The translations under genes and the position numbers were made by a program. From positions 186,001 to 250,000 of the forward strand of contig NZ_QOHF01000003.1 in NCBI RefSeq assembly GCF_003319115.1: a stretch of 64,000 nt of DNA, read 5' to 3'. The notes beneath the pieces are model-generated. The model ran no database searches. It was given only the letters and a program-made list of their open reading frames with translations, and was not told the DNA's origin. Each line of letters opens with the position of its first letter. The first letter of the stretch is position 1. Positions 6,085-42,382 of the stretch are shown one piece after another. Source of the DNA: Geodermatophilus sp. TF02-6. GTDB taxonomy: Bacteria > Actinomycetota > Actinomycetes > Mycobacteriales > Geodermatophilaceae.

Positions 6085-7815
6085 ATGCAGACGACCGTCC
6101 TCCGCCGCCTGAGCGTCGCGGCCGCCGCGTCGACCACGCTGGCCGCCCTGGGCGTGGCCGCCGCGGCGCCCGCGACCGCGCAGTCCTCCGGTCCCGAGCC
6201 GGTCGAGGTGCAGCTGCTGGCGCTCAACGACTTCCACGGCGCGCTGGAGCCGCCCACCGGCTCGGGCGGGCGCATCCAGACCGGCGTGAACCCGGACGGC
6301 ACGCCGGTGACCGTGGACGCCGGCGGGGTCGAGTACCTCGCGACCCAGCTGGCCGCGCTCACCCAGGCGCAGCGGGAGGGCAACACGGTCACCGTCGCCG
6401 CCGGCGACCTGATCGGGGCCTCGCCGCTGCTCTCGGCGGCCTTCCACGACGAGCCGACCATCGAGGCGCTCGGCCTGGCCGGCCTCGACTACGCCAGCGT
6501 CGGCAACCACGAGTTCGACGAGGGCGCCGCGGAGCTGCTGCGCATCCAGAACGGTGGCTGCCACCCGGTGGACGGCTGCGCCGACGGCACGCCCTACGAC
6601 GGCGCGGACTTCCAGTACCTGTCGGCCAACGCCTTCGTCACCGACACCGGCCAGCCGCTGCTGCCGCCGTACGCGGTCAGGCGGGTGCAGGGCGTGGAGA
6701 TCGGCTTCATCGGGATGACCCTCGAGGGCACCGGGTCGATCGTCAGCCAGCAGGGCGTGGCCGGGCTCACCTTCGCCGACGAGGTGGAAACCGCCAACCG
6801 CTACGCCGCCGAGCTGAAGGAGCAGGGCGTCGAGGCGATCGTCGTCCTGCTGCACCAGGGCGGGCAGCAGACCGGCCCGGACGCCTGGGACGTCGACGGC
6901 TGCAACGGGCTCACCGGGCCGATCGTCGACATCGCCCACGGCATGTCCGACGCGATCGACGTCGTCCTCAGCGGGCACACCCACCAGGCGTACGACTGCG
7001 AGATCGACGGCAAGCGGGTCACCAGCGCCGCCTCCAACGGCCGGCTGGTCACCGACGTCGACCTGTCGGTGGACCGGATCACCGGCGACGTGGTCGACGC
7101 CGTCGCCGACAACCGGATCGTCACCCGCGACGTCGCAGCCGACCCCGCCCAGACCGCGCTGATCGCCCACTACCGCGAGGTCCTCGGCCCCATCGCCGCC
7201 GAGGTGGTCGGCTCGGCCGCGGTCGACCTCACCCGGGTGCAGGAGGACCCGCTGGACGGCGCCGAGTCGCCGCTCGGCAACGTCATCGCCGACGCCCAGC
7301 TCGCCGCCACCGACGACGAGGCGGGCGCGGTCGCGGCGTTCATGAACCCCGGCGGCGTGCGCGCCGACCTGGCCGCCGGTGACGTCACCTACGAGGAGGC
7401 GTTCACCGTCCAGCCGTTCGCCAACAACCTGGTCACGCTGGACCTGACCGGCGCCCAGCTGAACTGCCTGCTCGAGCAGCAGTACCAGGTGGGTCGGGTG
7501 CTCTACGCCTCGGCGGGCGTCACCTACTCGGTCGACCCCGCGGGCACGCCCGCGGCGGCGGGGGCGGACCCGTGCACCGGCACCCGGGTCGTCGACTCCT
7601 CGCTGCGGATCGGAGGCACCCCGGTTCCGCCGGAGGGCGTGTACCGGGTCACGGTGAACAACTTCCTCGCCGGCGGCGGGGACGGCTTCTCCGTGCTCAC
7701 CGGCGGGACGAACGCGGTCACCGGGCCGATCGACCTCGACGCGTTCACCGCCTACCTCGGCGCGAACTCCCCGGTGCCGGCCCCGGCGCTCGACCGCATC
7801 ACCCGGGCCGGCTGA
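6085..7815 (+). CDS. Secreted bifunctional metallophosphatase / 5'-nucleotidase
   Basis: 576-residue exported enzyme of the UshA/5'-nucleotidase family, which hydrolyses nucleotides or related phosphoesters outside the membrane to release phosphate and nucleosides. An N-terminal signal peptide (about 33 residues, ending ATAQS) is clear. The metallophosphatase domain shows 'LNDFHG', 'AAGDLIG', 'GNHEFDEG', 'LLHQGG' and 'SGHTHQ', giving the two-metal ligand set. The C-terminal 5'-nucleotidase domain shows 'NPGGVRADL' and 'FANNLVTLDLTGAQL'. There is no LPXTG or membrane anchor, so it is probably released or loosely wall-bound. The start has GGGAGA 4 nt upstream. Released nucleosides could feed the purine enzymes encoded 4 kb downstream, but this is only suggestive. 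Confidence 0.93.
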   Translation: MQTTVLRRLSVAAAASTTLAALGVAAAAPATAQSSGPEPVEVQLLALNDFHGALEPPTGSGGRIQTGVNPDGTPVTVDAGGVEYLATQLAALTQAQREGNTVTVAAGDLIGASPLLSAAFHDEPTIEALGLAGLDYASVGNHEFDEGAAELLRIQNGGCHPVDGCADGTPYDGADFQYLSANAFVTDTGQPLLPPYAVRRVQGVEIGFIGMTLEGTGSIVSQQGVAGLTFADEVETANRYAAELKEQGVEAIVVLLHQGGQQTGPDAWDVDGCNGLTGPIVDIAHGMSDAIDVVLSGHTHQAYDCEIDGKRVTSAASNGRLVTDVDLSVDRITGDVVDAVADNRIVTRDVAADPAQTALIAHYREVLGPIAAEVVGSAAVDLTRVQEDPLDGAESPLGNVIADAQLAATDDEAGAVAAFMNPGGVRADLAAGDVTYEEAFTVQPFANNLVTLDLTGAQLNCLLEQQYQVGRVLYASAGVTYSVDPAGTPAAAGADPCTGTRVVDSSLRIGGTPVPPEGVYRVTVNNFLAGGGDGFSVLTGGTNAVTGPIDLDAFTAYLGANSPVPAPALDRITRAG

Positions 7816-7906: not shown

Positions 7907-10285
7907 GTGACCGCTCCGACTCTCGACACCGCCCCGTGGCTGGTTCGCGAGCCGCACGTGGATCCCGAGACGCTCGCGGTCGCCGAGTCCGTCTTCAGCC
8001 TCTCGAACGGCTACGTCGGGATCCGGGGGACGCTCGACGAGGTCGAGCCCTGTGCCGTGCGTGGCACCTACCTGTCCGGGGTCTACGAGACGCATCCGCT
8101 GTCCTATCCCGAGAGCGGTTACGGGCACCCCGAGGAGGGGCAGGCGATGATCCCCGTCGCCGACGGCACGCCGCTGCGCCTCCTCGTCGACGGCGTCCCG
8201 CTCGACGTGCGCCAGGTCGAGCCGCAGGTCCACGAACGCACGCTGGACCTGCGCGCCGGCACGCTCGACCGCCGCGTGCGCTGGACCGCGCTGTCGGGCA
8301 CGTCGCTGGAGGTGTCCTCGCGGCGGATCGTCTCCTTCGCGGAGCGGTCGGTCTGCGCCGTGCGGTACGAGGTCCGCGCCCTGGACGGGCCCGCGCACGT
8401 CGTCGTGCGGTCCGAGCTGGTCGCCGAGGAGGTCATGCCCACGGGCGTGGACAACGACGACCCGCGGGTCGCAGAGGCCCTGGACGACGCCTTCGAGCCG
8501 CTCGTCCACGTCCGCGCGGCGACCGGTGGCGCCCTCGCGTCACGGACGCGCCGGTCGGGCATCACGGCCGCCGCCGCGGTCGGCCATGACATCGACGGCG
8601 GGGACATCGACGGCGGGGAGATCAACGGCGGGGAGAGTGACGGCGGGCGGGTGAGCACACACGTCGACCAGGACCACGTCGTCACCACGGTCGCCGCCGA
8701 CCTGCTCCCCGGGGAGAGCCTCACGATCGTCAAGGCCGTCGGGTACAGCTGGTCGCACGACGCCGGACCCGACTCTCTCGTCGGGGAGGCATCGGCCGCC
8801 GTGAGTTCCGCACTCGACCTCGGGTGGGAGGGTCTGCTCGCCGGTCAGCGGGCCGTGCTCGACGAGCTGTGGGCGGCGGCGGACGTCGAGGTCGACGGCG
8901 ACCCCGAGCTGCAGCAGGCGCTGCGCTACGCCGTCTTCCAGCTGTTCTCCTCCGCCGCCTGCATCTCCGGTGCCCCGGTCGGCGCCAAGGGACTGACCGG
9001 CACGGGCTACAGCGGCCACACCTTCTGGGACGTCGAGGGGTTCGTCCTGCCCGCCCTGACGCTGCTGCACCCGGACGCGGCGGCACGCCTGCTGCGGTGG
9101 CGCTACACCACGCTCGACCTCGCTCGCGAGCGTGCCGAGACGCTGGGGCTGCAGGGCGCGTCCTTCGCGTGGCGCACCATCAGCGGGCGTGAGGTCTCCG
9201 CGTACTGGCCTGCCAGCACGGCGGCGATGCACGTCAACGCCGACATCTCCCGCGCCTTCTGGCTCCACCGCAACGTCACGGGCGAGGATCTCGACTCCGT
9301 CGGGGGCCTGGAGGTGCTCGTCGAGACGGCGCGGCTGTGGATGTCCATGGGCCACGAGGACGCGGCCGGCGGGTGGCACCTGTTCGGCATGACCGGGCCG
9401 GACGAGTACACCGGGGTCGTCGACGACAACGTCTTCACCAACCTCATGGCCCGGCGCAACCTCCTGCGCGCCGCCGACGCGTGCCGGAGGCTGCCGGCGC
9501 GCGCGTCGGAGCTGGGCGTGGACTCCGCCGAGACCTCCGCCTGGCGGTCCGCGGCCGACGCCGTCCACGTCCCGTGGGACGAGGGCCTGCGCGTGCACCC
9601 GATGAACGAGAACTTCACGACCTACCGGGAGTGGCGGTTCGAGGACAAACGCGACTCCTACCCGGTCCAGGAGCACCAGCACTACGCCAAGTTCTACCGG
9701 CGGCAGGTGCTCAAGCAGGCCGATCTCGTCCAGGCGCTGTGGTGGTGCCGCGACGACTTCACGGCCGAGGAGGTGGCGCGCGACCTGGACTACTACGAGG
9801 CGCGCACCGTCCGGGACTCCTCGCTCTCGGCCGCCGTCCAGGCGGTCGTGTGCGCCCAGGCGCAGCACCCCGACCTCGCCCTGCGCTACCTGCGGGAGTC
9901 CGCCCTCGTGGACCTGCGCGACGTCCAGGGCGACACCGCCAAGGGGCTGCACCTGGCCTCGCTCGGAGGGACGTGGCTGGCGTTCGCCGCCGGCCTCGGC
10001 GGGCTGCGGGAGGACCACGAGGACCTCGAGATCGCGCCCCTGCTGCCGTCCTCGCTCTCGCGCACCGCCTACTCCGTCACCTGGCGCGGCAGGCTGCTCC
10101 GCGTCGAGACGACGCGGGAGGGCACCACGGTCACGCTGACGCGCGGCGAGGGGCCGGTGACCGTCGTCGTGGACGGCGCACCCCTGTCGGTTCCGGCCGC
10201 CGCACCCGTCTCCGTGCCGCTCCGTGCCCCGACTCCGTTGCTCGACGAGCCGAGGCAGCCGGTCGGATGCGAACCGCGCACGTGA
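7907..10285 (+). CDS. Glycoside hydrolase family 65 protein (disaccharide phosphorylase-like)
   Basis: 792-residue cytoplasmic GH65 enzyme; family members phosphorolyse maltose, trehalose, kojibiose or related alpha-glucosides to glucose 1-phosphate. The N-terminal beta-sandwich begins 'ESVFSLSNGYVGIRGTLDE', the (alpha/alpha)6 core carries the general acid Glu500 in 'MTGPDEYTG', and 'KFYRRQVLKQADLVQAL' and 'DTAKGLHLASLGGTW' are family signatures. The length matches known phosphorylases. GTG 7907 follows a GAGGACC ribosome site. The usual partner beta-phosphoglucomutase and sugar transporter are not next to it. A four-fold 15-bp repeat lies inside the coding region (8588-8647). Which disaccharide is used cannot be decided here. 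Confidence 0.92.
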   Translation: MTAPTLDTAPWLVREPHVDPETLAVAESVFSLSNGYVGIRGTLDEVEPCAVRGTYLSGVYETHPLSYPESGYGHPEEGQAMIPVADGTPLRLLVDGVPLDVRQVEPQVHERTLDLRAGTLDRRVRWTALSGTSLEVSSRRIVSFAERSVCAVRYEVRALDGPAHVVVRSELVAEEVMPTGVDNDDPRVAEALDDAFEPLVHVRAATGGALASRTRRSGITAAAAVGHDIDGGDIDGGEINGGESDGGRVSTHVDQDHVVTTVAADLLPGESLTIVKAVGYSWSHDAGPDSLVGEASAAVSSALDLGWEGLLAGQRAVLDELWAAADVEVDGDPELQQALRYAVFQLFSSAACISGAPVGAKGLTGTGYSGHTFWDVEGFVLPALTLLHPDAAARLLRWRYTTLDLARERAETLGLQGASFAWRTISGREVSAYWPASTAAMHVNADISRAFWLHRNVTGEDLDSVGGLEVLVETARLWMSMGHEDAAGGWHLFGMTGPDEYTGVVDDNVFTNLMARRNLLRAADACRRLPARASELGVDSAETSAWRSAADAVHVPWDEGLRVHPMNENFTTYREWRFEDKRDSYPVQEHQHYAKFYRRQVLKQADLVQALWWCRDDFTAEEVARDLDYYEARTVRDSSLSAAVQAVVCAQAQHPDLALRYLRESALVDLRDVQGDTAKGLHLASLGGTWLAFAAGLGGLREDHEDLEIAPLLPSSLSRTAYSVTWRGRLLRVETTREGTTVTLTRGEGPVTVVVDGAPLSVPAAAPVSVPLRAPTPLLDEPRQPVGCEPRT
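8588..8647 (+). repeat. In-frame 15-bp tandem repeat within GH65 gene
   Basis: Four imperfect 15-bp units encode DIDGG, DIDGG, EINGG and ESDGG in the loop between the N-terminal sandwich and the linker of the GH65 enzyme. The acidic Asp/Gly loop is absent from my recollection of the family and looks like an expandable surface insertion. Confidence 0.85.
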
Positions 10286-10456
10286 GGGCGTGCTCCGACC
10301 GCCGGTGCCGGCTCCGACGTCGCTCAGGGCGCGAGGTGTCGGGGTGGGCGGGGAACGTCGCGATCCGGCATCGATCGCGTCCGGCGTGTTCGGCACGGGT
10401 GCCCGCCGGGCAGGGGAGTGGGGTCTGCCGACCCTTCTCTGGAGGACGTCCCGACC

Positions 10457-11056
10457 GTGCGCCGCCTCCTCCGCGCCACCGCTGCCGCCGCTCCGCTCCT
10501 GGGGCTGGCCGCCTGCGGGTCCCCGGCCGCCGAGCCGGCGCCGCGGGCGGTCGCCGCCGCGGAGCCGGCCGCGGTCGTGGAGCCGGCCGCGGTCGTCGCC
10601 CAGGGGACGGCGGACACCGCGTCCTGCACCGGCGCCACCGGCTATCCGGTCGCCTACCCCGCCGACTGGACGACCAACGAGGACGGCGTGCTGCCCGCCT
10701 GCAGCTGGTTCGGGCCGGAGGAGTTCGTCGTCCCCGAGGCCTCCGACGTCCGGACCGCGCCGGTCACCCTCGACGTGGCGGACCGCACCTTCGCCGAGGC
10801 GACCGCGCCGAACCCCGACGAGGTGGTCCGGACGGCGCTGGAGGTGGCCGGCCGGCCGGCGCTGCGGGCCGAGCTGGTCACCGGCCCCGGCCTGTACCCG
10901 GAGGGCACCCGCATCACGACCTACGCGGTCGACCTGGGCGGCCGGACCCTGCTGGCCGACGCCGTCGAGCTGCCCGGCGGCGACCACGAGCGCGCCGTCG
11001 TCGTCCTCGACGACATGATGGCGAGCCTGCACCTCTCCGGCGTCGCGCCGGGCTGA
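10457..11056 (+). CDS. Putative lipoprotein of unknown function
   Basis: 199-residue protein with a lipoprotein signal peptide: basic start MRRLLR, hydrophobic stretch, and lipobox LAAC with Cys20 as the lipidation site. An Ala/Pro/Glu-rich linker is followed by a globular domain beginning 'GATGYPVAYPADW', which resembles actinobacterial cell-surface lipoproteins with a PsbP/Mog1-like fold; that resemblance is weak. GTG 10457 is preferred over an upstream ATG because GGAGGAC lies 9 nt before it and the signal peptide then starts properly. It stands alone between the GH65 gene and the xanthine dehydrogenase operon. No function can be assigned. Confidence 0.8.
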   Translation: MRRLLRATAAAAPLLGLAACGSPAAEPAPRAVAAAEPAAVVEPAAVVAQGTADTASCTGATGYPVAYPADWTTNEDGVLPACSWFGPEEFVVPEASDVRTAPVTLDVADRTFAEATAPNPDEVVRTALEVAGRPALRAELVTGPGLYPEGTRITTYAVDLGGRTLLADAVELPGGDHERAVVVLDDMMASLHLSGVAPG

Positions 11057-11242: not shown

Positions 11243-11258
11243 GTTTCCTGCTCGTCAC
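11243..11258 (-). promoter_or_regulatory. Candidate GlnR box upstream of xanthine dehydrogenase operon
   Basis: On the minus strand this reads GTGAC, six bases, GAAAC, an exact match to the GlnR half-site pair GTnAC-n6-GnAAC known from actinobacteria. It lies 54-69 bp before the first xanthine dehydrogenase start. Only one pair is convincing, so it is weaker than the four-half-site operators elsewhere in this window. Confidence 0.45.
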
Positions 11259-11311
11259 GTCCTTGGTGCACGGTCCCCGTGCACACCGGGCGCGATGGGC
11301 GAGGAGGGGCG

Positions 11312-12172
11312 ATGGACTTCCTGCAGCCGTCGTCGTGGGACGACGCGCTGGCGGCGCGGGCCGAGCGGCCCGACGCGCTGCCGATCGCCGGCGGCACCGA
11401 CGTGATGGTCGAGCTGAACTTCGACCGCCGCCGCCCGGGTGCGCTGCTGGACCTGACCCGCGTCCCCGAGCTGCGCGAGTGGACGCTCGCGGACGGGGTG
11501 GTCCGCCTCGGCGCCGGCGTCCCCTACGCCCGGGTGATCGGCGAGCTGGGCGACCGGCTCCCCGGCCTGGCGATGGCCGCGCGCACCGTCGGCTCGCCGC
11601 AGATCCGGGCGCGCGGCACGGTCGGCGGCAACCTCGGCTCGGCGTCCCCGGCCGGCGACGCGCACCCGCCGCTGCTGGCCGCCGGCGCGCAGGTCGAGCT
11701 GGTCTCCGCGGCCCGGGGCGCCCGCCGGGTCCCGGTCGCCGACTTCTTCGCCGGCGTCAAGCGCAGCGTCCTCGAACCCGACGAGCTGATCGCCGCCGTC
11801 CTCGTGCCGGAGGCCGCCGGGCCGCAGCAGTACTGCAAGGTCGGCACCCGCAACGCCATGGTGATCGCGGTGTCGGCCTTCGCCCTCGCCCTGCACCCCG
11901 ACCGGCAGGAGGTGGGCACCGGCATCGGGTCGGCGGCGCCGACGCCGCGGCGGGCGCCCGAGGCCGGGCAGTTCCTCGCCGGCGAGCTGAACTGGGCCGC
12001 GCGGACCCCGCTGCCCGAGACCCTCGCCGCCGAGTTCGGACGGCGGGTGGCCGACGCCGCCTCGCCCATCGACGACGTCCGCGGGAGTGCGGCCTACCGC
12101 CGGCACTCGCTGGCGGTGATGGCCCGCCGCGCCGCGACCTGGGCCTGGGACGACCTGAGGAGGGCGGCCTGA
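11312..12172 (+). CDS. Xanthine dehydrogenase FAD-binding subunit
   Basis: 286-residue FAD subunit of a three-component molybdenum hydroxylase. It passes electrons from the iron-sulfur subunit to NAD. FAD-contact motifs 'PIAGGTDVMVE' (near residue 28) and 'TVGSPQIRARGTVGGNLGSA' (near residue 95) are typical of CoxM/XdhB-type proteins. ATG 11312 has a strong GAGGAGGGGC ribosome site. Its stop overlaps the next start by one base (TGATG), so the subunits are translationally coupled. The order FAD, 2Fe-2S, Mo subunit is common for actinobacterial purine hydroxylases. A GlnR-like box lies upstream, suggesting induction when nitrogen is short. Confidence 0.92.
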   Translation: MDFLQPSSWDDALAARAERPDALPIAGGTDVMVELNFDRRRPGALLDLTRVPELREWTLADGVVRLGAGVPYARVIGELGDRLPGLAMAARTVGSPQIRARGTVGGNLGSASPAGDAHPPLLAAGAQVELVSAARGARRVPVADFFAGVKRSVLEPDELIAAVLVPEAAGPQQYCKVGTRNAMVIAVSAFALALHPDRQEVGTGIGSAAPTPRRAPEAGQFLAGELNWAARTPLPETLAAEFGRRVADAASPIDDVRGSAAYRRHSLAVMARRAATWAWDDLRRAA

Positions 12173-12642
12173 TGCGGGTCACCACCACCGTGAACGGCAC
12201 CGAGCGCACCGCCGACGACGTCTGGCCGGGGGAGAGCCTGCTCTTCCTGCTGCGCGAGCGGCTGGGCCTGCCCGGCGCGAAGAACGCCTGCGAGCAGGGC
12301 GAGTGCGGCTCGTGCACCGTCTACCTCGACGGGGAGCCGGTGTGCGCCTGCCTGGTCGCCGCCGGGCAGGCGACCGGCCGGGAGGTCACCACCGTCGAGG
12401 GGCTGGCCGAGGGGGGCCGGCTGCACCCGGTGCAGGAGGCCTTCGTCGAGGCCGGCGCCGTCCAGTGCGGCTTCTGCACGCCCGGGCTGGTCGTCATGGC
12501 CTCCGACCTGCTCGAGCGGGTCCCGGAGCCCTCCGACCCGGAGATCCGCGAGGCGCTGGCCGGCAACCTGTGCCGCTGCACCGGCTACGAGAAGATCCTC
12601 GACGCCGTGCGGCTGGCCGCGGCGAGGCAGGCCGCCCGATGA
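12172..12642 (+). CDS. Xanthine dehydrogenase [2Fe-2S] subunit
   Basis: 156-residue electron-transfer subunit with two 2Fe-2S clusters. The plant-ferredoxin-type cluster is ligated by cysteines in 'CEQGECGSC' and the downstream 'VCAC'. The second, all-helical cluster uses 'CGFCTPG' and 'CRCTGY'. This is the standard CoxS/XdhC-type layout at full length. The start overlaps the preceding stop by one base and its own stop overlaps the next start (ATGA), making a coupled three-gene unit. Together the three proteins should oxidise hypoxanthine and xanthine to urate in the cytoplasm, though other N-heterocycles or aldehydes are possible substrates. Confidence 0.95.
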
Positions 12643-14921
12643 CCACCACCGAGGCCACGGCCCGGCAGACCGGCCGGATCGGCGAGAGCGCGCAGCGTCC
12701 CGACGGCACGCTCAAGGTCACCGGCGAGTACGCCTACGCCAGCGACCTGTGGCACGACGACATGGTCTGGGGCGTCACGCTGCGCAGCCCGCACCCGTCG
12801 GCCCGCATCCGCCGGATCGACGTCGCCGAGGCGCTCACCGTGCCCGGGGTGACCGCCGTCCTCACCGCCGACGACGTCCCCGGCGAGAACGCCTACGGCC
12901 TCGAGCACGCCGACTCACCGGTGCTGGCCGCCGACGTCGTCCGCTACGTGGGGGAGCCGGTGGCGCTGGTCGCCGCCGACCACCCGGAGACCGCCCGCCG
13001 CGCGGCGGCGCGGATCCGGGTCGACTACGAGGTGCTGCCGGCCCTCACCGACCCCCGCCGCGCCCTGGACGACGACGCCCCGCGGGTGCACCCCGGCGGC
13101 AACCTGGTCCGCCACCAGCGCCTGCGCCGCGGCGACCCCGACCCCACCGCGCCGGTCGTGGTCAGCCTGGACTTCTGCGTCGGCATGCAGGACCAGGCCT
13201 TCCTCGGCCCGGAGTCCGGGCTCGCCGTCCCGGCCGAGGACGGCGGCGTCGACCTCTACGTCGCCACCCAGTGGCTGCACATCGACCAGCGGCAGGTGTG
13301 CCTGGCCCTGGGCATGCCGCCCGAGAAGGTGCGGCTGACCCTCGCCGGCGTCGGCGGGGCGTTCGGCGGCCGCGAGGACCTCTCGGTGCACGTGCACGCC
13401 TGCCTGCTGGCGCTGCGCACCGGCCGGCCGGTGAAGATGAGCTACGGCCGCGAGGAGTCCTTCTACGGCCACGTGCACCGCCACCCGGCGACGATGACCT
13501 ACGAGTTCGGCGCCGAGCGCGACGGCACGCTGGTCTACGCCAGGGCGCACGTGCTGCTCGACGGCGGCGCCTACGCCTCGTCGACGGCGGCGGTGGTGGG
13601 CAACGCCGGGTTGCTCGGCCTGGGGCCGTACCGCATCCCGTCGGTGGCGGTCGACGCCTACGGGGTGTTCACCAACAACCCGCCGTGCGGGGCGATGCGC
13701 GGCTTCGGCTGCGTGCAGGCCGCCTTCGCCCACGAGGCGCTCATGGACGAGCTGGCCGACGCCGTCGGCGTCGACCCGGTGGAGATCCGCCGGCGCAACG
13801 GCCTGCGCGAGGGCGAGCGCACCATCACCGGCCAGGCCGTCGACTCGCCCGCCCCGGTCGCCGAGCTGCTGCAGCGGGTGGCCGACCTGCCGCTGCCCCC
13901 ACCCGCGGACACCGCCGACATCCGGTCCCTGCCGGGCGCGGTCGGCAACACCACCCACGGCGAGGGCGTGCGCCGCGGCGTCGGCTACGCCGTGACGATG
14001 AAGAACGTCGGCTTCTCCGAGGGCTTCGACGACTACTCCACCGCCCGCGTGCGGCTGCAGGTGACCGGCGGCGAGGCGGTCGCGTCGGTGCACACCGCGG
14101 CCGCCGAGGTCGGCCAGGGGCTGGTCACCGTCCAGCAGCAGATCGCCCGCACCGAGCTCGGGGTGGAGCGGGTCGTCGTCGTCCCGGCCGACACCACCGT
14201 CGGCTCGGCCGGTTCGACGTCGGCGTCCCGGCAGACCTACGTGACCGGCGGGGCGGTCCAGGCGGCCTGCGGGGCGGTGCGGACGGCGGTGCTGCAGCGG
14301 GCCGCGGTCGCGCTCGGGCTCTCCCCGGCCGCTCTCCGGTTGGACGGGGACAAGGTCGTCGGCTCCTCCGGCGAGGTGCTCGCCGACCTGGCCGAGGTGC
14401 TCGGCGGCGACGCGGTCGAGGAGACCGTCGAGTGGCGGCACCGGCCCACCCACGCCGTCGACCCGGAGACCGGCCAGGGCGACGCGCACGTGCAGTTCGC
14501 CTTCTCCGCGCACCGGGCGGTCGTCGACGTCGACGTCGAGCTCGGCCTGGTCAAGGTGGTCGCCCTCGACACCGCCCAGGACGTCGGGAAGGCGATCAAC
14601 CCCGATGCCGTCGTCGGCCAGATCCACGGCGGGTCGGCCCAGGGCATGGGGCTGGCGCTGATGGAGGAGGTCGTGGTCACCGACGGGCACGTGCGCAACC
14701 CGTCGTTCACCGACTACCTGCTGCCGACCGTCCTCGACGTGCCGCCGATGCGGGTGGAGGTGCTCGAGTACGCCGACCCGCACGCGCCCTACGGCGTCCG
14801 CGGGGTGGGGGAGCCGCCGACGATCTCCTCCGGCCCGGCGGTGGCCGCCGCCGTCCGCGCCGCGACCGGCCGGCCGCTGCGCCGGGTGCCCATCCGCCCC
14901 GAGCACATCACCGGCACATGA
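12639..14921 (+). CDS. Xanthine dehydrogenase molybdopterin-binding subunit
   Basis: 760-residue catalytic subunit binding the molybdenum cofactor. It starts with the aldehyde-oxidase/xanthine-dehydrogenase a/b hammerhead ('RPDGTLKVTGEYAYASDL'). It then shows the Mo-pterin loop 'GVGGAFGGRED', a substrate-pocket arginine at about residue 354 in 'GAMRGFG', and the catalytic glutamate at about residue 725 in 'GVGEPP'. The presence of the Arg and Glu at these places fits purine hydroxylases better than CO dehydrogenases, which carry a VAYxCSFR loop not seen here. It resembles proteins annotated PucD. No XdhC-like cofactor-insertion gene lies in the window, so maturation must be encoded elsewhere. 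Confidence 0.93.
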   Translation: MTTTEATARQTGRIGESAQRPDGTLKVTGEYAYASDLWHDDMVWGVTLRSPHPSARIRRIDVAEALTVPGVTAVLTADDVPGENAYGLEHADSPVLAADVVRYVGEPVALVAADHPETARRAAARIRVDYEVLPALTDPRRALDDDAPRVHPGGNLVRHQRLRRGDPDPTAPVVVSLDFCVGMQDQAFLGPESGLAVPAEDGGVDLYVATQWLHIDQRQVCLALGMPPEKVRLTLAGVGGAFGGREDLSVHVHACLLALRTGRPVKMSYGREESFYGHVHRHPATMTYEFGAERDGTLVYARAHVLLDGGAYASSTAAVVGNAGLLGLGPYRIPSVAVDAYGVFTNNPPCGAMRGFGCVQAAFAHEALMDELADAVGVDPVEIRRRNGLREGERTITGQAVDSPAPVAELLQRVADLPLPPPADTADIRSLPGAVGNTTHGEGVRRGVGYAVTMKNVGFSEGFDDYSTARVRLQVTGGEAVASVHTAAAEVGQGLVTVQQQIARTELGVERVVVVPADTTVGSAGSTSASRQTYVTGGAVQAACGAVRTAVLQRAAVALGLSPAALRLDGDKVVGSSGEVLADLAEVLGGDAVEETVEWRHRPTHAVDPETGQGDAHVQFAFSAHRAVVDVDVELGLVKVVALDTAQDVGKAINPDAVVGQIHGGSAQGMGLALMEEVVVTDGHVRNPSFTDYLLPTVLDVPPMRVEVLEYADPHAPYGVRGVGEPPTISSGPAVAAAVRAATGRPLRRVPIRPEHITGT

Positions 14922-14932
14922 GCGGCCGCACC

Positions 14933-15003
14933 CCGCCGTGGTCATCGTCGAGTGGCTAGCGTCTGCGGCGTGTCGGCGAGCCACTCGACGATGATCACGG
15001 CGG
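14933..15003. repeat. 25-bp inverted repeat spanning a promoter and start region
   Basis: Arms 14933-14957 and 14979-15003 are complementary at 24 of 25 positions, with the single exception a G-U pair in RNA. The loop is 21 nt. The hairpin follows the Mo-subunit stop by 11 bp. The loop holds the GTG 14970 start and most of the -10-like box of the next gene; the right arm holds its alternative start ATG 14991. It may terminate readthrough from the xanthine dehydrogenase operon while embedding a new promoter. Confidence 0.92.
14957..14962 (+). promoter_or_regulatory. -10-like box (TAGCGT), leaderless start of MtnA-like gene
   Basis: TAGCGT ends 7 nt before GTG 14970, with no ribosome site between. 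It begins on the last base of the left arm of the 14933-15003 inverted repeat, so promoter opening and cruciform or hairpin formation would compete. Confidence 0.45.
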
Positions 15004-16022
15004 ACGTCACCGTCCCGACGCTCGTCGGGCAGAGCGTGGTGGTCGAGCCGGACGCCGTGCGGATCCTCGACCGCCGCGTGTTCCCCTTCGAGCGCGCCTG
15101 GGTGACCTGCCGCTCGTACGAGGACGTGGCCGAGGCGATCGAGGACATGGTCACCCAGAGCCTCGGCCCGCTGTTCGCCGCGGCCGGCGGGATGACGCTG
15201 GCCGCTCGCGAGGCCGACCGGCTGCCCACCGCACGGGCGCGGCGGGAGCTCGTGACCGCCGCCGGCCGCCGGCTGGTCGCCACCCGGCCGACGAACAACG
15301 GCATCCGGGACGTCGTCGCGGAGCTGCTCGCCGTCGCCGCGGCCACCGTGGACGCCGGCGAGCCGCTGGGCCCCGCGGTCGAGCGGGCCGCCCGTGACCT
15401 CGAGGACCGCTGCCGGGCCGGCTACCGGCGCCTCGGCGAGCACGCCGCCGCGCTGGTCCCGGACGGCGCCACGGTGCTGACCCACTGCTGGGCCGACGCC
15501 TACCTGACCGAGACGGTGGCGGCGGTGCTGCGCTCGGGCAAACGGATCGACGCGGTGTGCACCGAGACCCGGCCCTACCTGCAGGGCGCCCGGCTGACCG
15601 CGGAGAGCCTGGCCGAGATGGGCGTGGCCACCCGGCTGATCACCGACGGCGCGGCCGCGCACCTGATGAGCCGGGGCGAGGTGAGCGTCCTCGTCACCGG
15701 CGCCGACCGGGTGACGATGGACGGCGCGGTGGTCAACAAGATCGGCACGCTGCAGATCGCCGTCGCGGCGCACGCCTTCGGCGTGCCGTTCGTGGCGCTG
15801 GTGCAGGCGCCCGACCGCCAGGCGCCCACGGCCGCCGCCGTCGAGCTGGAGGACCGTGACGGCCGGGAAGTGCTGCACTGCCTGGGCCGGCGCACCGCCT
15901 CGGAGCGGGCGACGGGGGTCTACCCGGCCTTCGACGTCACGCCCCCGCGCTTCGTCAGCGTCGTGGTCACCGACCGCGGCCGGTTCGCGCCGGGCGACAT
16001 GGCCTCCTACTTCGCCGGATGA
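14970..16022 (+). CDS. MtnA-like sugar-1-phosphate aldose-ketose isomerase
   Basis: 350-residue member of the eIF2B-alpha/MtnA isomerase family, which convert 5-methylthioribose-, 5-deoxyribose- or ribose-1-phosphates to the ketose form. Visible features: 'TRPTNNG' (the RPT signature), catalytic Cys173 in 'LTHCWAD', 'ETRPYLQGARLTAESL', and catalytic Asp246 in 'TGADRV' followed by 'NKIGT'. GTG 14970 is chosen as a leaderless start; ATG 14991 would remove 7 residues. Its stop overlaps the downstream aldolase start (ATGA). An MtnA-type isomerase paired with a class II aldolase is the core of the DHAP shunt that salvages 5'-deoxyadenosine and methylthioadenosine. The methionine-salvage enzymes MtnC/MtnD are absent. 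True substrate unproven. Confidence 0.75.
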   Translation: MSASHSTMITADVTVPTLVGQSVVVEPDAVRILDRRVFPFERAWVTCRSYEDVAEAIEDMVTQSLGPLFAAAGGMTLAAREADRLPTARARRELVTAAGRRLVATRPTNNGIRDVVAELLAVAAATVDAGEPLGPAVERAARDLEDRCRAGYRRLGEHAAALVPDGATVLTHCWADAYLTETVAAVLRSGKRIDAVCTETRPYLQGARLTAESLAEMGVATRLITDGAAAHLMSRGEVSVLVTGADRVTMDGAVVNKIGTLQIAVAAHAFGVPFVALVQAPDRQAPTAAAVELEDRDGREVLHCLGRRTASERATGVYPAFDVTPPRFVSVVVTDRGRFAPGDMASYFAG

Positions 16023-16666
16023 GGGCGCCCAGGACCCGGGGCGAGGCCGTCGACCAGCTGGTCGAGGTGGGCCGCCTGGCGGTCGAGCGCGGCCTGGTGC
16101 TGGCCAGCGGCGGCAACCTGTCCGCCCGGCTGCCCGGCGCGGCCGAGTTCGTGGTGACCGCGGCCGGCACCTGGCTCGACCGGCTCACGCCCGCGGACCT
16201 CAGCGTGGTGACCCTGGACGGCGAGGTCGTCGGGGGAGCGGCGCGGCCGTCGAGCGAGTGGAAGCTGCACCAGCGCACCTACCTCGTGCGACCGGACGTG
16301 GGCGCCGTCGTCCACCTGCACCCGCAGCACGCCGTCCTGGTCGACGCCCTCGGCCACCGCATCCGGCTGCTCACCCTCGACCACGCGGTCTACGTGCGCT
16401 CCGTGGGGACGGTCCAGTTCCTCCCGAACGGCTCCGACGAGCTCGCCGACGCCGCCGCCGAGCAGACCCGGGAGCACGACTGCGTCGTGCTCTCGCACCA
16501 CGGCTGCTCCACCGTCGGCCCCGACGTCGGGACGGCCTTCCGGCGGGCGCTGAACCTGGAGGAGGCGGCGACCGCGACCTACCGCGCCCTGCTGCTCGGG
16601 GACATGACCACCGACTTCCCCGCCGACTTCACCGCCGACGCCGACCTCCGCCACGGGCCGCCGTGA
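16019..16666 (+). CDS. Class II aldolase/adducin family protein
   Basis: 215-residue zinc-dependent aldolase of the fuculose-phosphate aldolase fold. Family residues are present: catalytic Glu80 in 'SSEWKLH', zinc ligands His99 and His101 in 'VHLHPQ', and His161 in 'SHHGCST'. The glycine-rich 'ASGGNLSAR' phosphate loop is at residues 29-37. ATG overlaps the isomerase stop by four bases, implying co-translation and a shared pathway. The likely reaction is cleavage of a 5-substituted ribulose-1-phosphate to DHAP and an aldehyde (DHAP shunt). MtnB-type dehydratases share this fold, but the dehydratase's partner genes are missing. It is the last gene of the unit; a convergent small gene follows. 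Confidence 0.82.
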   Translation: MRAPRTRGEAVDQLVEVGRLAVERGLVLASGGNLSARLPGAAEFVVTAAGTWLDRLTPADLSVVTLDGEVVGGAARPSSEWKLHQRTYLVRPDVGAVVHLHPQHAVLVDALGHRIRLLTLDHAVYVRSVGTVQFLPNGSDELADAAAEQTREHDCVVLSHHGCSTVGPDVGTAFRRALNLEEAATATYRALLLGDMTTDFPADFTADADLRHGPP

Positions 16667-25248: not shown

Positions 25249-27165
25249 TCACGCCTCGTGCGAGGCGCAGTGCGCCGAGGCCGACCGGGGCACCCCCAGC
25301 GCCGGGTTGCGGTCGAAGAAGCCGACCGGCTTGAGGGTGAAGCCGGCGTAGTCGGTCGGCATGACCGGCCAGTCCTCCGGGCGCGGGAAGTGGGTGAGCC
25401 CGAAGGTGTGCCAGAGCACGACGTCGGCGTCCTCCAGCGGCGCGTCGTCGGCGACGAACGACGGCAGGCCGCCGGAGCCCGGGTGCTGGTTGACGAAGTC
25501 GCCGGCCGGATACCGCTCGGCCGGGTCGTACTCGCTGACCCACAGGCTCTTGGTGGCGAAGGTCGCCCGCTGGTGGATCGAGGACTCCTCGTCGGCCAGC
25601 ATCAGCGGCAGGTTCTCCGGGTGCAGCGCGTAGCCGACCGGCTGGCCCAACCGGTTGGTCCGCGACGGGTTGACCACGTGCCAGGTCCGCCCGACCGTGC
25701 CGTCGGTGACCCGCTGGGCCTCGGACTCGCGGGTCAGCGGGGTCAGCCGGCGGCGGAAGGAGTTTCCGTAGGGATTGGTGTCGCTGACCGGCTCCCGGAC
25801 GGCGTCCACCTCGTAGACGGTGTTGCGCTGCCCGTCCACGGCCATGTCCAGCCGCGCCGAGAACAGGTGCTGGTGGAACGGCGCCCCCAGCCCGGGGGCG
25901 ACCTCCGTGGCGTAGGGGTGCTCGTCGCCGCGGTAGGAGGAGGTGAACACGATCCCGGTGGCCTTGGACTCCAGCTGGATGGTGCCGTCGGTGTAGAGGT
26001 ACCAGTAGAAGCCGTAGTCGTAGTTGCCGATCGTGGTGAAGAAGCTGATCACCAGCCGGCGCGAGCGGCGGGTCTCGGCCATCCCGTTGAACAGGTCGGT
26101 GTGCTTCCAGCCGACGCCGTAGTCCTCCTCGTGCAGGCAGATGGCGTTGCGGATCACCTTCGGCGCGCCCTCCTCGTCGGCGATGGTGGCGTCGAAGTAG
26201 TGGATCTCGCCGAGGCAGTCGCAGCCGAGCTCGAGGGAGTTGCTGTAGCGGGCGAACAGGTACTCGCCGGTGTCGAAGTAGTTCTGCCAGAAGCGCACCG
26301 GTGAGGGGTCGGCGTAGGGCACGACCATCTCGGCGATCGACGCCCGGTAGACCACCGACCGGCCGTCGATGGACAGCTGGTGCAGGGTCAGCCCCTCGCG
26401 GACGTCGAACCCGACCCGGAACTCCCACCCGGCCCAGCGGACGACGTCGTCCTCCACGGTGAAGCTCGGCCCCTCGGGCTGGGTGATCTCGATCGGCTTG
26501 AGGTCGCGGGTCGGCGCCGGGTGGGCGTCGGAGTCCCACTCGCCGCGCTCGGCGGGCACCGGCAGGTCGAAGTGGTCGTGCACCGCGGTGGTCACCCCGC
26601 GGGTGATGTCGACGTAGGCGACCACGCCGTCCACCGGGTGGGCCCACGGCAGGTCGGCCGGGTCGGACTGGGCGAAGCCGAGCACCCGCACGACGCGGTG
26701 GCCGTACTCGTCGGGGAAGTAGGAGCCGGCCGAGAGGGGGACGGCGCGCACGTCGGCGACGTCCAGGCCGCGCTTGGCCATGGCGGCGACCCAGCGCTCG
26801 TCCTGCGCCAGGATCGGCTCGATCGCCTCGAACTCGGCGTCCAGGATCGGCACCTGCCCGTCGGCGGCGGCGTCGAGGGCGACGTCGCGGACGACGGACC
26901 GCTGGGTCACCGACACGGTGAGGTCGCGGCCGTCGCCGGTGGCCCGGTCCAGCAGCAGCACCCGCAGCCGGCGCTCGATCGGCTGCTCGGGTGTCCAGTC
27001 GAGGACGTCGCGCTTGTGCGGCTCGTCGAGGCCGACGTAGACGAACTTGGTGTTCTCGCCGAGGAGCCCGGCGGCCTCGACCACCTCGCGGGCGGCGGTG
27101 ATCTCCTCAGGCGTCAGCCGGGACAGCGGGTGGGTGGCGGTGGACTGGGCAGCGGTGAGGGTCAT
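25249..27165 (-). CDS. Copper-containing primary-amine oxidase
   Basis: 638-residue copper/topaquinone amine oxidase, which oxidises primary amines to aldehydes with release of ammonia and hydrogen peroxide. Catalytic features are complete: the self-modified topaquinone tyrosine is Tyr382 in 'TIGNYDYGF', catalytic base Asp298 in 'NYFDTGEYLF', and copper ligands His431, His433 ('HQH') and His592 ('THFPRPEDWPVMP'). There is no signal peptide, so it is cytoplasmic, as in Arthrobacter enzymes. The start has GAGGAGA 6 nt upstream. It lies 12 bp after an APC permease in the same operon, and a GlnR-like operator sits at the operon's promoter. Preferred amine (tyramine, phenethylamine, histamine) is not readable. 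Confidence 0.97.
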   Translation of the reverse strand: MTLTAAQSTATHPLSRLTPEEITAAREVVEAAGLLGENTKFVYVGLDEPHKRDVLDWTPEQPIERRLRVLLLDRATGDGRDLTVSVTQRSVVRDVALDAAADGQVPILDAEFEAIEPILAQDERWVAAMAKRGLDVADVRAVPLSAGSYFPDEYGHRVVRVLGFAQSDPADLPWAHPVDGVVAYVDITRGVTTAVHDHFDLPVPAERGEWDSDAHPAPTRDLKPIEITQPEGPSFTVEDDVVRWAGWEFRVGFDVREGLTLHQLSIDGRSVVYRASIAEMVVPYADPSPVRFWQNYFDTGEYLFARYSNSLELGCDCLGEIHYFDATIADEEGAPKVIRNAICLHEEDYGVGWKHTDLFNGMAETRRSRRLVISFFTTIGNYDYGFYWYLYTDGTIQLESKATGIVFTSSYRGDEHPYATEVAPGLGAPFHQHLFSARLDMAVDGQRNTVYEVDAVREPVSDTNPYGNSFRRRLTPLTRESEAQRVTDGTVGRTWHVVNPSRTNRLGQPVGYALHPENLPLMLADEESSIHQRATFATKSLWVSEYDPAERYPAGDFVNQHPGSGGLPSFVADDAPLEDADVVLWHTFGLTHFPRPEDWPVMPTDYAGFTLKPVGFFDRNPALGVPRSASAHCASHEA

Positions 27166-27177
27166 GTCGATCTCTCC

Positions 27178-28674
27178 TCAGATCAGCGGTGCGTTGTCGG
27201 CCGGGGAGGCCGTGGTGAGGTCGCGGGCGGCGTTCGGGCGTGCCGCGGCGACGAGCCAGCCGGCGGCCAGCGCGACGGCGAGCAGCACGCCGGCGCCGAC
27301 GCCGAGCGGTGTGGAGCCGCCCATCAGCAGCGGCAGGTTGTCGACGAGCAGGAGGAGGATCGCGGCCAGCCCGAGCAGGCCCAGGGCGGGCGCGATCAAC
27401 GAGTGCCAGGGCCGCCGGTCGAGCCCGGTGCGGCGGAAGAAGACGATCACCGCGAGGCAGGCCAGCAGCATGAGGACGACGATGCCGACGCTGGCGATGC
27501 CGGCCAGCCAGGTGAAGACCTCCAGCACCGGGTCCAGCCCGGCGAGGGCGCAGACGGCCATCAGCGCCACGCCGATCGCCGTCGTCACCAGGGAGGCGAC
27601 GTGCGGCGAGGCGTGCCGGGCGTGGCTGTGGCCGCAGGCGACCGGCAGCACGCCGGTGTTGCCCAGGGAGAACACGTAGCGGGCCAGCACGTTGTGGAAG
27701 GCCAGGATCGCGGCGAACAGGCTGGTCACGAAGAGCACCTGCATGACGTCGGCGGCGACCGCCCCGACGTACCGGTGGGCGGTCGTGATCACGATCCCGC
27801 CGGGGTCGGCGGCGGCCTCCTCGACGATGCGGCTGTCGCCCCATGCACTCACGATGGCCCATGCCGACACCGTGTAGAAGACCCCGATGATGACCAGCGC
27901 GGCGTAGGTCGCCCGCGGGATGGTGCGTTCGGGGTCGCGGGCCTCGTCGCGGAAGATGGCGGTCGCCTCGAAGCCGATGAACCCGGCGATGGCGAACATC
28001 AGCCCGATGCCGGGGGCGCCGGAGAGCACGTCGCCCGGGGTGACCAGCGCCGAGGACAGCCCCTCCTGGCCACCGCCCCGGCCGATCACCGCGGTGTCCA
28101 TCACCAGCACGATGCCGACCTCGGCGACCAGCAGGACGGCGAGCACCCGGCTGGACAGCTCGATGTGCCGGTAGCCGAGCACTCCGGTGACGGCCAGCAC
28201 CAGCGCGGTCCACAGCCACCAGGGCAGGGCCGGCCCGCCGTGGCCGGCCACCAGGTCGCCGATCAGGTAGCCGATGTAGCCGTAGACGGCGCCCTGCACG
28301 GCGATGTAGCTGATCAGCGCCACGAGGGCGCTGCCCAGGCCGGCGCCGCGGCCCAGCCCGGTGCCGATGTAGGAGTAGAAGGCCCCGGCGTTGGGGACGT
28401 GGCGGGTCATCGCGGTGAACCCGACGGCGAAGAACAGCAGCACGACGGCGGCGGCGACGTACATGGCCGGGTAGCCCGCGCCGTTGCCCGCGGCGATGCC
28501 GATGGGCACCGAGCCGGCGATGACCGTCAGCGGCGCCGCGGCGGCGACCACCATGAAGACGATGCCGGCGGGGCCGAGGGTGCCGTGCAGACGGCGCTCG
28601 GGTGCGGCCGGGCCGCCGGGGTCCCGGGCGGCCGGGCCGCCGGAGGTGGGTGGCGGGTCGGAGACGGTGGCCAT
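27178..28674 (-). CDS. APC-superfamily permease, probably an amine or amino-acid importer
   Basis: 498-residue transporter with about 12 membrane spans. The first span carries 'MVVAAAAPLTVIAGSVPIGI', the APC helix-1 substrate motif region, and 'GAFYSYIGTGLGRG' in span 3 and 'GFIGFEATAIFRDEARDPERT' in span 6 are family signatures. ATG 28674 is preferred because GGAGGTG lies 5 nt upstream and a short polar N-terminus then precedes the first span. It is first in an operon with the amine oxidase, so uptake of primary amines is the natural inference. The four-half-site GlnR-like operator lies 83-120 bp upstream. Confidence 0.9.
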   Translation of the reverse strand: MATVSDPPPTSGGPAARDPGGPAAPERRLHGTLGPAGIVFMVVAAAAPLTVIAGSVPIGIAAGNGAGYPAMYVAAAVVLLFFAVGFTAMTRHVPNAGAFYSYIGTGLGRGAGLGSALVALISYIAVQGAVYGYIGYLIGDLVAGHGGPALPWWLWTALVLAVTGVLGYRHIELSSRVLAVLLVAEVGIVLVMDTAVIGRGGGQEGLSSALVTPGDVLSGAPGIGLMFAIAGFIGFEATAIFRDEARDPERTIPRATYAALVIIGVFYTVSAWAIVSAWGDSRIVEEAAADPGGIVITTAHRYVGAVAADVMQVLFVTSLFAAILAFHNVLARYVFSLGNTGVLPVACGHSHARHASPHVASLVTTAIGVALMAVCALAGLDPVLEVFTWLAGIASVGIVVLMLLACLAVIVFFRRTGLDRRPWHSLIAPALGLLGLAAILLLLVDNLPLLMGGSTPLGVGAGVLLAVALAAGWLVAAARPNAARDLTTASPADNAPLI

Positions 28675-28756
28675 GCGCACCTCCGGAGGTCGGCAGCCCG
28701 GTGCTGCCGGGGCGAGGACGACGCAATACACCTTGGTCTCCGGAGCGGCGGATGCG

Positions 28757-28794
28757 GTCACACCGTCGTAACACCGTCGAAACATCTGCGTAAC
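28757..28794. promoter_or_regulatory. Four-half-site GlnR-like operator between divergent permease operons
   Basis: GTCAC, GTAAC, GAAAC and GTAAC start at 28757, 28768, 28779 and 28790, exactly 11 bp apart, each separated by six bases. This is the spacing of actinobacterial GlnR a/b boxes (GTnAC-n6-GnAAC, tandem). It lies between the amine permease/oxidase operon (start 28674, minus) and the second permease/IclR operon (start 28901, plus) and could serve both. GlnR itself is not in the window. Confidence 0.7.
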
Positions 28795-40860: not shown

Positions 40861-42294
40861 TCAGATGTCGTAGTACATCGCGAACTCGTGCGGGTGCGGG
40901 CGGAGGCGGATCGGGTCGATCTCGTTCTCCCGCTTGTACTCGATCCACGTCTCGATCAGGTCGGGGGTGAACACCCCACCGTCGATCAAGTACTCGTTGT
41001 CGGTCTCGAGGGTGTCGAGGACGGCGTCGAGCGAGGCCGGCACCTTCTCGATGCCGAGAGCCTCCTCGGGCGGCAGCTCGTAGAGGTCCTTGTCGACCGG
41101 CGCCGGCGGCTCGATCTTGTTCTTGATGCCGTCGAGGCCGGCCATCATCATCGCCGAGAAGGCGAGGTAGGGGTTGGCCGACGGGTCGGGCACCCGGAAC
41201 TCGATGCGCTTGGCCTTGGGGCTGTCGCCGGAGATCGGGATGCGGCAGCAGGCCGAGCGGTTGCGGGCCGAGTACACGAGGTTGATCGGGGCCTCGTAGC
41301 CGGGCACCAGGCGGTGGTAGCTGTTCACCGTCGGGTTGGTGAAGGCCAGCAGCGACGGCGCGTGGGCGAGCAGGCCACCGATGTAGTGGCGGGCGGTGTC
41401 GGACAGGCCCGCGTAGCCGGTTTCGGCGTGGAAGAGCGGCTCGCCGTCCTTCCACAGCGACTGGTGGGTGTGCATGCCCGAGCCGTTGTCACCGAAGAGC
41501 GGCTTCGGCATGAAGGTCACGGTCCTGCCGGCCTGCCAGGCCGTGTTCTTGATGACGTACTTGAACAGCATCAGGCTGTCGGCCGCCCGCAGCAGCGTGT
41601 CGAACTTGTAGTTGATCTCGGCCTGGCCCCCGGTGCCCACCTCGTGGTGCCCGCGCTCGAGCTCGAGCCCGGCGTTGGTCAGGTTGACCATCATCTCCGC
41701 GCGCAGGTCGCTGAAGTGGTCGAACGGCTCGACCGGGAAGTAGCCGCCCTTGGCGCGGGTCTTGTAGCCGAGGTTCGGCCCGCCGTTCGCGCCGGTCAGG
41801 GCCCCGCTGTTCCACGACCCCTCGACCGAGTCGATGTGGTAGTAGCCCTCGTTGATGCCGGTGCTGTGCCGGATCGAGTCGAAGATGTAGAACTCCGCCT
41901 CGGGGCCGAAGTACGCGGTGTCGGCGATGCCGCTGGCGGACAGGTACGCCTCGGCCTTCTTCGCCACGTTGCGCGGGTCGCGGCTGTAGGCCTCCCGCGT
42001 GATCGGGTCGTGGATGAAGAAGTTCATGTTCAGCGTCTTGCGGGCCCGGAACGGGTCGAGGTAGGCGCTGTTGGCGTCGGGCAGCAGCAGCATGTCCGAC
42101 TCGTTGATCGTCTGGAAACCGCGGATCGACGAGCCGTCGAAACCGAGCCCGTCGCTGAACGTGTCCTCGCCGAACGTCGACGCCGGGATGGTGAAGTGCT
42201 GCATGACGCCGGGCAGGTCGCAGAAGCGCACGTCGACGAACTCGACGTCGTTGTCGCTGATGTAGGCGGCGACTTCGTCGGGGCTGGTGAACAT
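40861..42294 (-). CDS. glnA: Glutamine synthetase type I
   Basis: 477-residue cytoplasmic enzyme making glutamine from glutamate, ammonia and ATP, and the main ammonia-assimilation step. Beta-grasp N-terminus '[20 protein letters not shown]', metal and glutamate motifs '[11 protein letters not shown]', '[12 protein letters not shown]' and '[17 protein letters not shown]', and 'NRSACCRIP' are all present. Tyr405 in '[11 protein letters not shown]' is the adenylylation site used by GlnE, whose gene starts this window; this is the I-beta type. A four-half-site GlnR-like operator lies 51-88 bp upstream. It is divergent from the RDD gene, as in M. tuberculosis glnA1. Confidence 0.98.
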
Positions 42295-42344: not shown

Positions 42345-42382
42345 GTTGCCCTCGGGTGTCCCGAGTGTTTCCGACCGGTAAC
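42345..42382 (-). promoter_or_regulatory. GlnR operator of glnA
   Basis: Read towards glnA, half-sites GTTAC, GAAAC, GACAC and GCAAC start exactly 11 bp apart (plus-strand positions 42378, 42367, 42356, 42345), each separated by six bases. The first pair matches GTnAC-n6-GnAAC perfectly and the second differs by one base. This is the known architecture for GlnR at actinobacterial glnA promoters. Confidence 0.8.

Follow-up and report, generated by a model that had tools for sequence, protein, structure and literature searches.

Gene order and protein family of the xanthine dehydrogenase, isomerase and aldolase

In Geodermatophilus sp. TF02-6, a soil actinobacterium, the genes of a xanthine dehydrogenase (XDH) are followed directly by those of an MtnA-family isomerase and a class II aldolase, which very probably form a module of the dihydroxyacetone phosphate (DHAP) shunt type. 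Our overall explanation, to which we give a probability of roughly 0.55, is that this module is fed by deamination of methylthioadenosine (MTA) or 5'-deoxyadenosine and that the hypoxanthine released passes to the XDH. The window, that is the whole stretch of DNA analysed, covers 64 kb of contig C34 (G000:C34:186001-250000) of a 4.73 Mb genome in 53 contigs. It was compared with 112 Geodermatophilaceae genomes, among which group g1 was taken as Geodermatophilus, at thresholds of E<=1e-40 for the isomerase, 1e-30 for the aldolase, 1e-200 for XDH and 1e-40 for deaminases, and with the best 80 of 114 isomerase loci in a wider genome collection. Six named loci were taken as the same DNA as six family genomes and were counted once. 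The isomerase and aldolase genes together are called the pair.

The XDH is encoded on the forward strand by three genes whose reading frames overlap end to end: a FAD-binding subunit (11312..12172; Pfam FAD_binding_5 and CO_deh_flav_C, NCBIfam XdhB below cut-off), a 2Fe-2S (FeS) subunit (12172..12642; Pfam Fer2 and Fer2_2) and a molybdopterin (Mo) subunit of the PucD type (12639..14921; Pfam MoCoBD_1/2). The Mo subunit scores 834 bits against the NCBIfam model pucD (xanthine-dehydrogenase subunit D; cut-off 783.65) and, with the FAD and FeS subunits adjoining, the enzyme is of the Puc type; these two smaller subunits score under their equivalog cut-offs. A uricase is encoded elsewhere in the genome, on contig C12.

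The isomerase (14970..16022, forward strand; Pfam IF-2B, PRK05720) is an MtnA-family (eIF2B-like) sugar-1-phosphate isomerase and the sole PF01008 match in the genome. It scores 275 bits against PRK05720 (cut-off 271), 208 against the canonical MtnA model TIGR00512 (cut-off 279) and 170 against the ribose-1,5-bisphosphate isomerase model TIGR00511 (cut-off 314). Its Cys173 and Asp246 are invariant across 25 aligned sequences, and we take a conserved Cys and Asp to be the catalytic residues of MtnA. The isomerase (end 16022) and the aldolase (start 16019) overlap by 4 nt.

The aldolase (16019..16666, forward strand; Pfam Aldolase_II) is of the FucA/DrdA type. Glu80, His99, His101 and His161 are invariant in 14 sequences. 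Against the MtnB dehydratase model TIGR03328 it scores 65 bits (cut-off 137), and the E-M-L-K-G stretch of MtnB is replaced by D-H-A/V-x-Y/H; which residue of MtnB is catalytic is assumed here. The protein keeps the catalytic Glu and metal-binding His and lacks the MtnB signature, as a DHAP-shunt aldolase should. The solved structure nearest to it in sequence is 6btd, which is DrdA, a 5-deoxyribulose-1-phosphate aldolase (PMC6079011). The gene content and order thus agree with the first-pass annotation of this DNA, which had listed XDH subunits followed by an MtnA-like isomerase and a class II aldolase.

The isomerase pairs with an aldolase or with methionine salvage

The isomerase was found in 12 of the 112 family genomes and the aldolase in 15. 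Ten of the 12 have the aldolase adjoining the isomerase or within about 2 kb, and in the other two (G025 and G108) the isomerase gene is close to MtnB, C and D. These two are also the only family genomes with MtnD over cut-off, weak matches below it being present in 40 more. The same separation holds among the 80 loci when aldolase presence is set at >=40% identity: MtnB, C or D is found in 70 loci and the aldolase in 6, with no locus having both and 4 having neither. The contigs of the 6 aldolase loci are those of six among the 10 family genomes with the pair. Three of the 4 remaining loci are betaproteobacterial (L043, L053 and L068) and have an aldolase of 27-28% identity; in L043 and L053, the two loci tested, an S-methyl-5'-thioinosine phosphorylase over cut-off is encoded near the isomerase. 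In a tree of 14 isomerases the 10 aldolase-paired forms stand apart from four methionine-salvage forms with support of 100/100. These results show that the isomerase subfamily is paired either with methionine salvage or with an aldolase, as set by its neighbours.

It is this either/or relation with MtnB, C and D that makes the pair, an MtnA-family isomerase adjoining a class II aldolase as in DHAP shunts and 5-deoxyribose salvage, very likely to be a DHAP-shunt-type module, as judged by gene neighbourhood. The earlier proposal that the two genes are the core of such a shunt is therefore well supported. Methionine salvage in TF02-6 was considered and rejected, since MtnD, which the universal MtnA-B-C-D route requires, has no match in the genome.

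Members of the isomerase subfamily read TQSxGP and TRxTNN where the MtnA of group g7 that scores over cut-off reads RGAPAL and RPTAVN. An acyl-CoA-dehydrogenase-like flavoprotein gene is present in 54 of the 80 isomerase loci (L009-L077 and others; e.g. L077:6886-8022), usually immediately 5' of the MtnA homologue, with methionine-salvage genes on the 3' side.

Source of the sugar phosphate

No MtnP-type MTA phosphorylase over cut-off was found in any of the 112 genomes. Matches below cut-off occur in 109 of them, all with 33-85 bits against a required 274.85, and the one in TF02-6 is a trimeric purine nucleoside phosphorylase (PNP). This protein and a DeoD-type PNP, encoded on contigs C5 and C42, are the only PF01048 members of the genome at E<=0.001, and no MTA nucleosidase of that family is encoded there. 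A search for an MTA or 5'-deoxyadenosine phosphorylase thus yields no MtnP over cut-off and two PNPs, either of which could serve. The first-pass annotation had routed the purine through adenine. With no MtnP over cut-off, and neither of the two PF01048 members an MTA nucleosidase, adenine was discarded as the intermediate in that form and is probably not produced; deamination before phosphorolysis, which would yield hypoxanthine directly, fits better.

Candidate enzymes for this order are encoded in related genomes. In Blastococcus (G029) a BMP-type transporter gene lies upstream of the series isomerase, phosphorylase, amidohydrolase deaminase and aldolase, and in Modestobacter (G086) the order is isomerase, phosphorylase and aldolase. 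The best match of this phosphorylase is the uridine phosphorylase model, below its cut-off. At >=48% identity it is present in 7 of the 112 genomes, all 7 with the aldolase (Fisher p 1.8e-7, uncorrected for kinship), and at 38-39% identity in two more, both without it. Five g6/g7 genomes (G070-G074; loci L126-L130) have an MtnA over cut-off, one of them cut by a contig end, and in all five it adjoins a homologue, at 60-63% identity, of a deaminase encoded on contig C45 of TF02-6. Their aldolase (52-61% identity) is always on another contig with no isomerase beside it, and their phosphorylase lies on the MtnA contig within about 7 kb in G070 and G072 and on a separate contig in the other three. 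The solved chains nearest to the C45 deaminase are amidohydrolases, including the MTA/S-adenosylhomocysteine deaminase 4f0r. From these sequence relations, we consider that the chances of a deamination-first feed of the pair are about even.

Association of the pair with XDH

XDH lies directly upstream of the pair in seven of the 10 genomes that have the pair (G000, G040, G048, G049, G051, G058 and G107), so that the order XDH-isomerase-aldolase occurs in 7/112 genomes and two genera. Because this order recurs in six genomes other than TF02-6, neither chance nor a single exceptional genome explains it, and the adjacency is not unique to the genome in which it was first seen. The gap between the Mo subunit and the isomerase is about 40-75 nt in five of the seven, measured by alignment ends; in TF02-6 the isomerase starts 48 or 69 nt past the Mo stop (GTG at 14970 or ATG at 14991). 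In a third genus XDH lies about 11 kb upstream of the pair on the same strand (G029), and in G086 XDH and the pair are on separate contigs. Beyond the seven genomes, XDH neighbourhoods were covered in 9 genomes and one further g7 stretch. In a tree of the 30 genomes given loci, out of 67 with XDH, the seven sit in a group of 12 together with five that have no pair (G055, G044, G062, G052 and G061). The support of this group is 94/85, just short of the tool's star. The tree would fit an old adjacency with several losses, and repeated insertion is possible.

The start of the isomerase is overlapped by a 28-nt inverted repeat (14933..15003, forward strand) with arms at 14933-14960 and 14976-15003, which are 93% complementary and 15 nt apart. 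Its RNA fold has -58.7 kcal/mol and a z of -9.4 against shuffles. Six relatives give z values from -2.0 to +1.3 and so do not clearly show the repeat, which was therefore set aside as a conserved signal.

Upstream of the XDH genes the window encodes a 5'-nucleotidase (6085-7815), a GH65 enzyme (7907-10285) and a small unknown protein (10418-11056). The GH65 gene has no match in loci L004, L005, L006 and L064, although the neighbouring genes are common to them.

A GlnR-type box upstream of XDH

An exact GlnR-type box (GTnAC-n6-GAAAC; consensus taken from PMC10704036) lies on the reverse strand at 11243..11258, 69 nt upstream of the FAD subunit start. It reads GTGAC-n6-GAAAC, 11243 being its first base, and is a predicted GlnR-regulon site at the XDH promoter. 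Genome-wide there are 8 exact boxes, whereas the reversed pattern, used as a control, occurs 2 times. Among 4000 windows of 250 bp drawn at random from related loci, 0.27% contain an exact box, 1.5% one with a single mismatch and 19.6% one with two, so that chance matches are frequent at two mismatches, rare at one and very rare at none. Three of the 8 fall in the window: the one before XDH, one at 42367-42382, 72 nt upstream of glnA (40861-42294), and one at 28768-28783, where two amino-acid permease genes meet head to head. The box before XDH is more credible because the other two precede glnA and the permeases with an amine oxidase. The known targets of GlnR in Mycobacterium smegmatis include copper amine oxidase and xanthine/uracil permeases (PMC3662644). 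Elsewhere in the genome there are five more exact boxes, located within or close to ftsW, the gene of a BCCT transporter, a gene with weak resemblance to cellulases and two unidentified frames; some of them are surely due to chance.

The eleven g1 XDH loci (six with the pair, five without) were compared at the corresponding place, 65-69 nt upstream of the FAD subunit. The box is exact in one (TF02-6), has one mismatch in five and two in four, and allowing up to two mismatches it is absent at that spot in G058. At that spot no match was found in G107, G028, G029 and G025, with G107 and G029 having two-mismatch matches elsewhere upstream, and in G031 an exact box lies 108 nt upstream.

Nitrogen genes are numerous in the window. 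GlnE is encoded at its left edge (20-2011), and a copper amine oxidase follows one of the two permeases named above (region 25249-28785).

Proposed route and alternative explanations

In the route that we propose, an MTA-deaminase-like amidohydrolase (C45) would convert MTA or 5'-deoxyadenosine to the inosine form, which a PNP encoded on C5 or C42 would split into hypoxanthine and a sugar 1-phosphate. The isomerase would turn 5-deoxy- or 5-methylthio-ribose 1-phosphate into the ribulose 1-phosphate form, and the aldolase would cleave this to DHAP and acetaldehyde or methylthioacetaldehyde. The XDH next door and the uricase on C12 would oxidise the hypoxanthine. From families and gene order we infer all the substrates, the co-transcription of the genes and the receipt by XDH of hypoxanthine from the route of the pair.

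Several observations weigh against parts of this explanation. A profile of 14 aldolases scores FucA of Escherichia coli higher (155 bits) than DrdA (146). TF02-6 lacks the dedicated phosphorylase that Blastococcus and Modestobacter have, and one has to assume that its own PNP or DeoD does the work. Of the 25 NCBIfam models shown, none is matched over cut-off by the C45 deaminase, and homologues of this enzyme are present in 108/112 genomes, with three in TF02-6 (two of which were read); deaminases being near-universal, having one says little. We take 3fow to be a triple mutant of PfPNP, as the letters at positions 66, 73 and 160 fit. The phosphorylase of the relatives keeps Val66 of PfPNP but has Cys for Val73 and Phe for Tyr160, at positions tied to the use of methylthioinosine (PMC3885546). 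The link with XDH is loosened by genomes that have one without the other. XDH occurs without the pair in G062, G044, G052, G061 and G055, and G057 (a G. siccatus contig) has the pair at the same locus but shows no match to XDH at E<=1e-200, with 9 of 30 first-look candidates having been scored, so that coupling is not obligatory. Across the family XDH is present in 67/112 genomes and in nine of the 10 with the pair, so that the two are weakly associated (Fisher p 0.038, not corrected for kinship). Between Mo subunit and isomerase there is the long inverted repeat in TF02-6, an Hsp20 gene on the opposite strand in G048 and a stretch of about 0.4 kb that holds a minus-strand frame in G107. Finally, all five g1 XDH loci without the pair keep the box (one mismatch in two, two in three). 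The box therefore belongs to XDH, and it was dismissed as evidence for nitrogen control of the pair itself. The first-pass annotation had described the whole block as nitrogen-responsive behind a GlnR-like box: the box stands, exact and 69 nt before XDH, but gives no sign that the pair is under nitrogen control.

Much of this would also be seen if a working DHAP shunt merely had XDH as a neutral or historical neighbour, the two acting independently and only XDH being nitrogen-controlled. The pair without XDH, XDH without the pair in five genomes, the box in front of XDH in both situations and the intervening repeat, Hsp20 gene or long gap all agree with such independence. Adjacency in seven of 10 genomes from two genera, proximity in a third, short gaps in five of the seven and the metabolic fit through hypoxanthine speak against it, and we consider it quite unlikely. 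Our confidence that the link of the pair to XDH has been selected is nevertheless tentative. The coupling of purine and sugar halves suggested at first is plausible if hypoxanthine from a deaminated nucleoside replaces adenine; the recurrent neighbourhood and the chemistry favour it, whereas strict or exclusive adjacency and nitrogen control of the pair were not borne out.

A different substrate would make the pair and XDH a general unit of purine-nucleoside catabolism, in which ribose 1-phosphate from inosine, guanosine or xanthosine would be converted by the isomerase to ribulose 1-phosphate and by the aldolase to DHAP and glycolaldehyde, while XDH takes the base. Both XDH and the nearby 5'-nucleotidase would be accounted for. 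A parallel exists in haloarchaeal guanosine breakdown, which begins with a uridine-phosphorylase-like guanosine phosphorylase and ends with a ribulose-1-phosphate aldolase (PMC9700705). The phosphorylase of the relatives, with its best match to the uridine phosphorylase model and without Tyr160, resembles the former, and the aldolase has a weak match to the haloarchaeal family (87 bits, cut-off 300). However, the haloarchaeal route runs via ribose-1,5-bisphosphate, and the isomerase is far from the corresponding model (170 against 314 bits). Moreover, 70 of the 80 loci of isomerase relatives are near methionine-salvage genes, and 10 of those 70 have a homologue of the phosphorylase, whose substrate there should be a methylthio compound. 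We regard ribose 1-phosphate as an improbable substrate, and the deamination-fed module as the better explanation.

Comparison with known systems and biological meaning

Known DHAP shunts are DrdK-DrdI-DrdA of Bacillus thuringiensis (PMC6079011), MtnK-MtnA-Ald2 of E. coli and a form with MtnP (PMC10986504). As in these, an MtnA-family isomerase adjoins a class II aldolase here, and the genomes with the pair have no MtnD over cut-off. Unlike these, the cluster has XDH upstream and lacks a kinase and MtnP (MtnK was not searched for genome-wide), the relatives rely on an amidohydrolase as deaminase and on a phosphorylase that resembles uridine phosphorylase, and the isomerase belongs to a divergent MtnA subfamily whose other members are mostly near actinobacterial methionine-salvage genes. 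Deamination is predicted ahead of phosphorolysis with hypoxanthine as the base, as in Pseudomonas aeruginosa, where MTA is converted via methylthioinosine to hypoxanthine and methylthioribose 1-phosphate (PMC6302742), but here the sugar phosphate is predicted to reach an aldolase. The haloarchaeal non-carboxylating pentose bisphosphate pathway (PMC9700705) shares a uridine-phosphorylase-like PNP, in the relatives, and a sugar-1-phosphate aldolase producing DHAP; it differs in that the isomerase described here is below the cut-off of the ribose-1,5-bisphosphate isomerase model. The module is most likely a modified form of a salvage route already known, and a link between its probable breakdown of the sugar half of spent S-adenosylmethionine and the oxidation of the purine half by XDH is suggestive only. 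A literature search, with subscription papers mostly outside its reach, gave no paper on such a coupling among the matches listed. The most far-reaching version of our proposal, an MtnP-free, deaminase-first shunt in Geodermatophilaceae with the base of a single nucleoside such as 5'-deoxyadenosine going through a nitrogen-controlled XDH and its sugar to glycolysis, and with the uridine-phosphorylase-like enzyme of the relatives as a new stand-in for MtnP, is in our opinion unlikely as a whole.

MTA and 5'-deoxyadenosine need disposal wherever polyamines or radical S-adenosylmethionine enzymes operate. If the proposal is true, it would provide a disposal route for actinobacteria that have neither MtnP nor methionine salvage, with a candidate enzyme for each step. 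The purine half is predicted to serve as nitrogen, and in the most far-reaching version by-products of S-adenosylmethionine, together with scavenged deoxynucleosides, would become a joint source of nitrogen and carbon.

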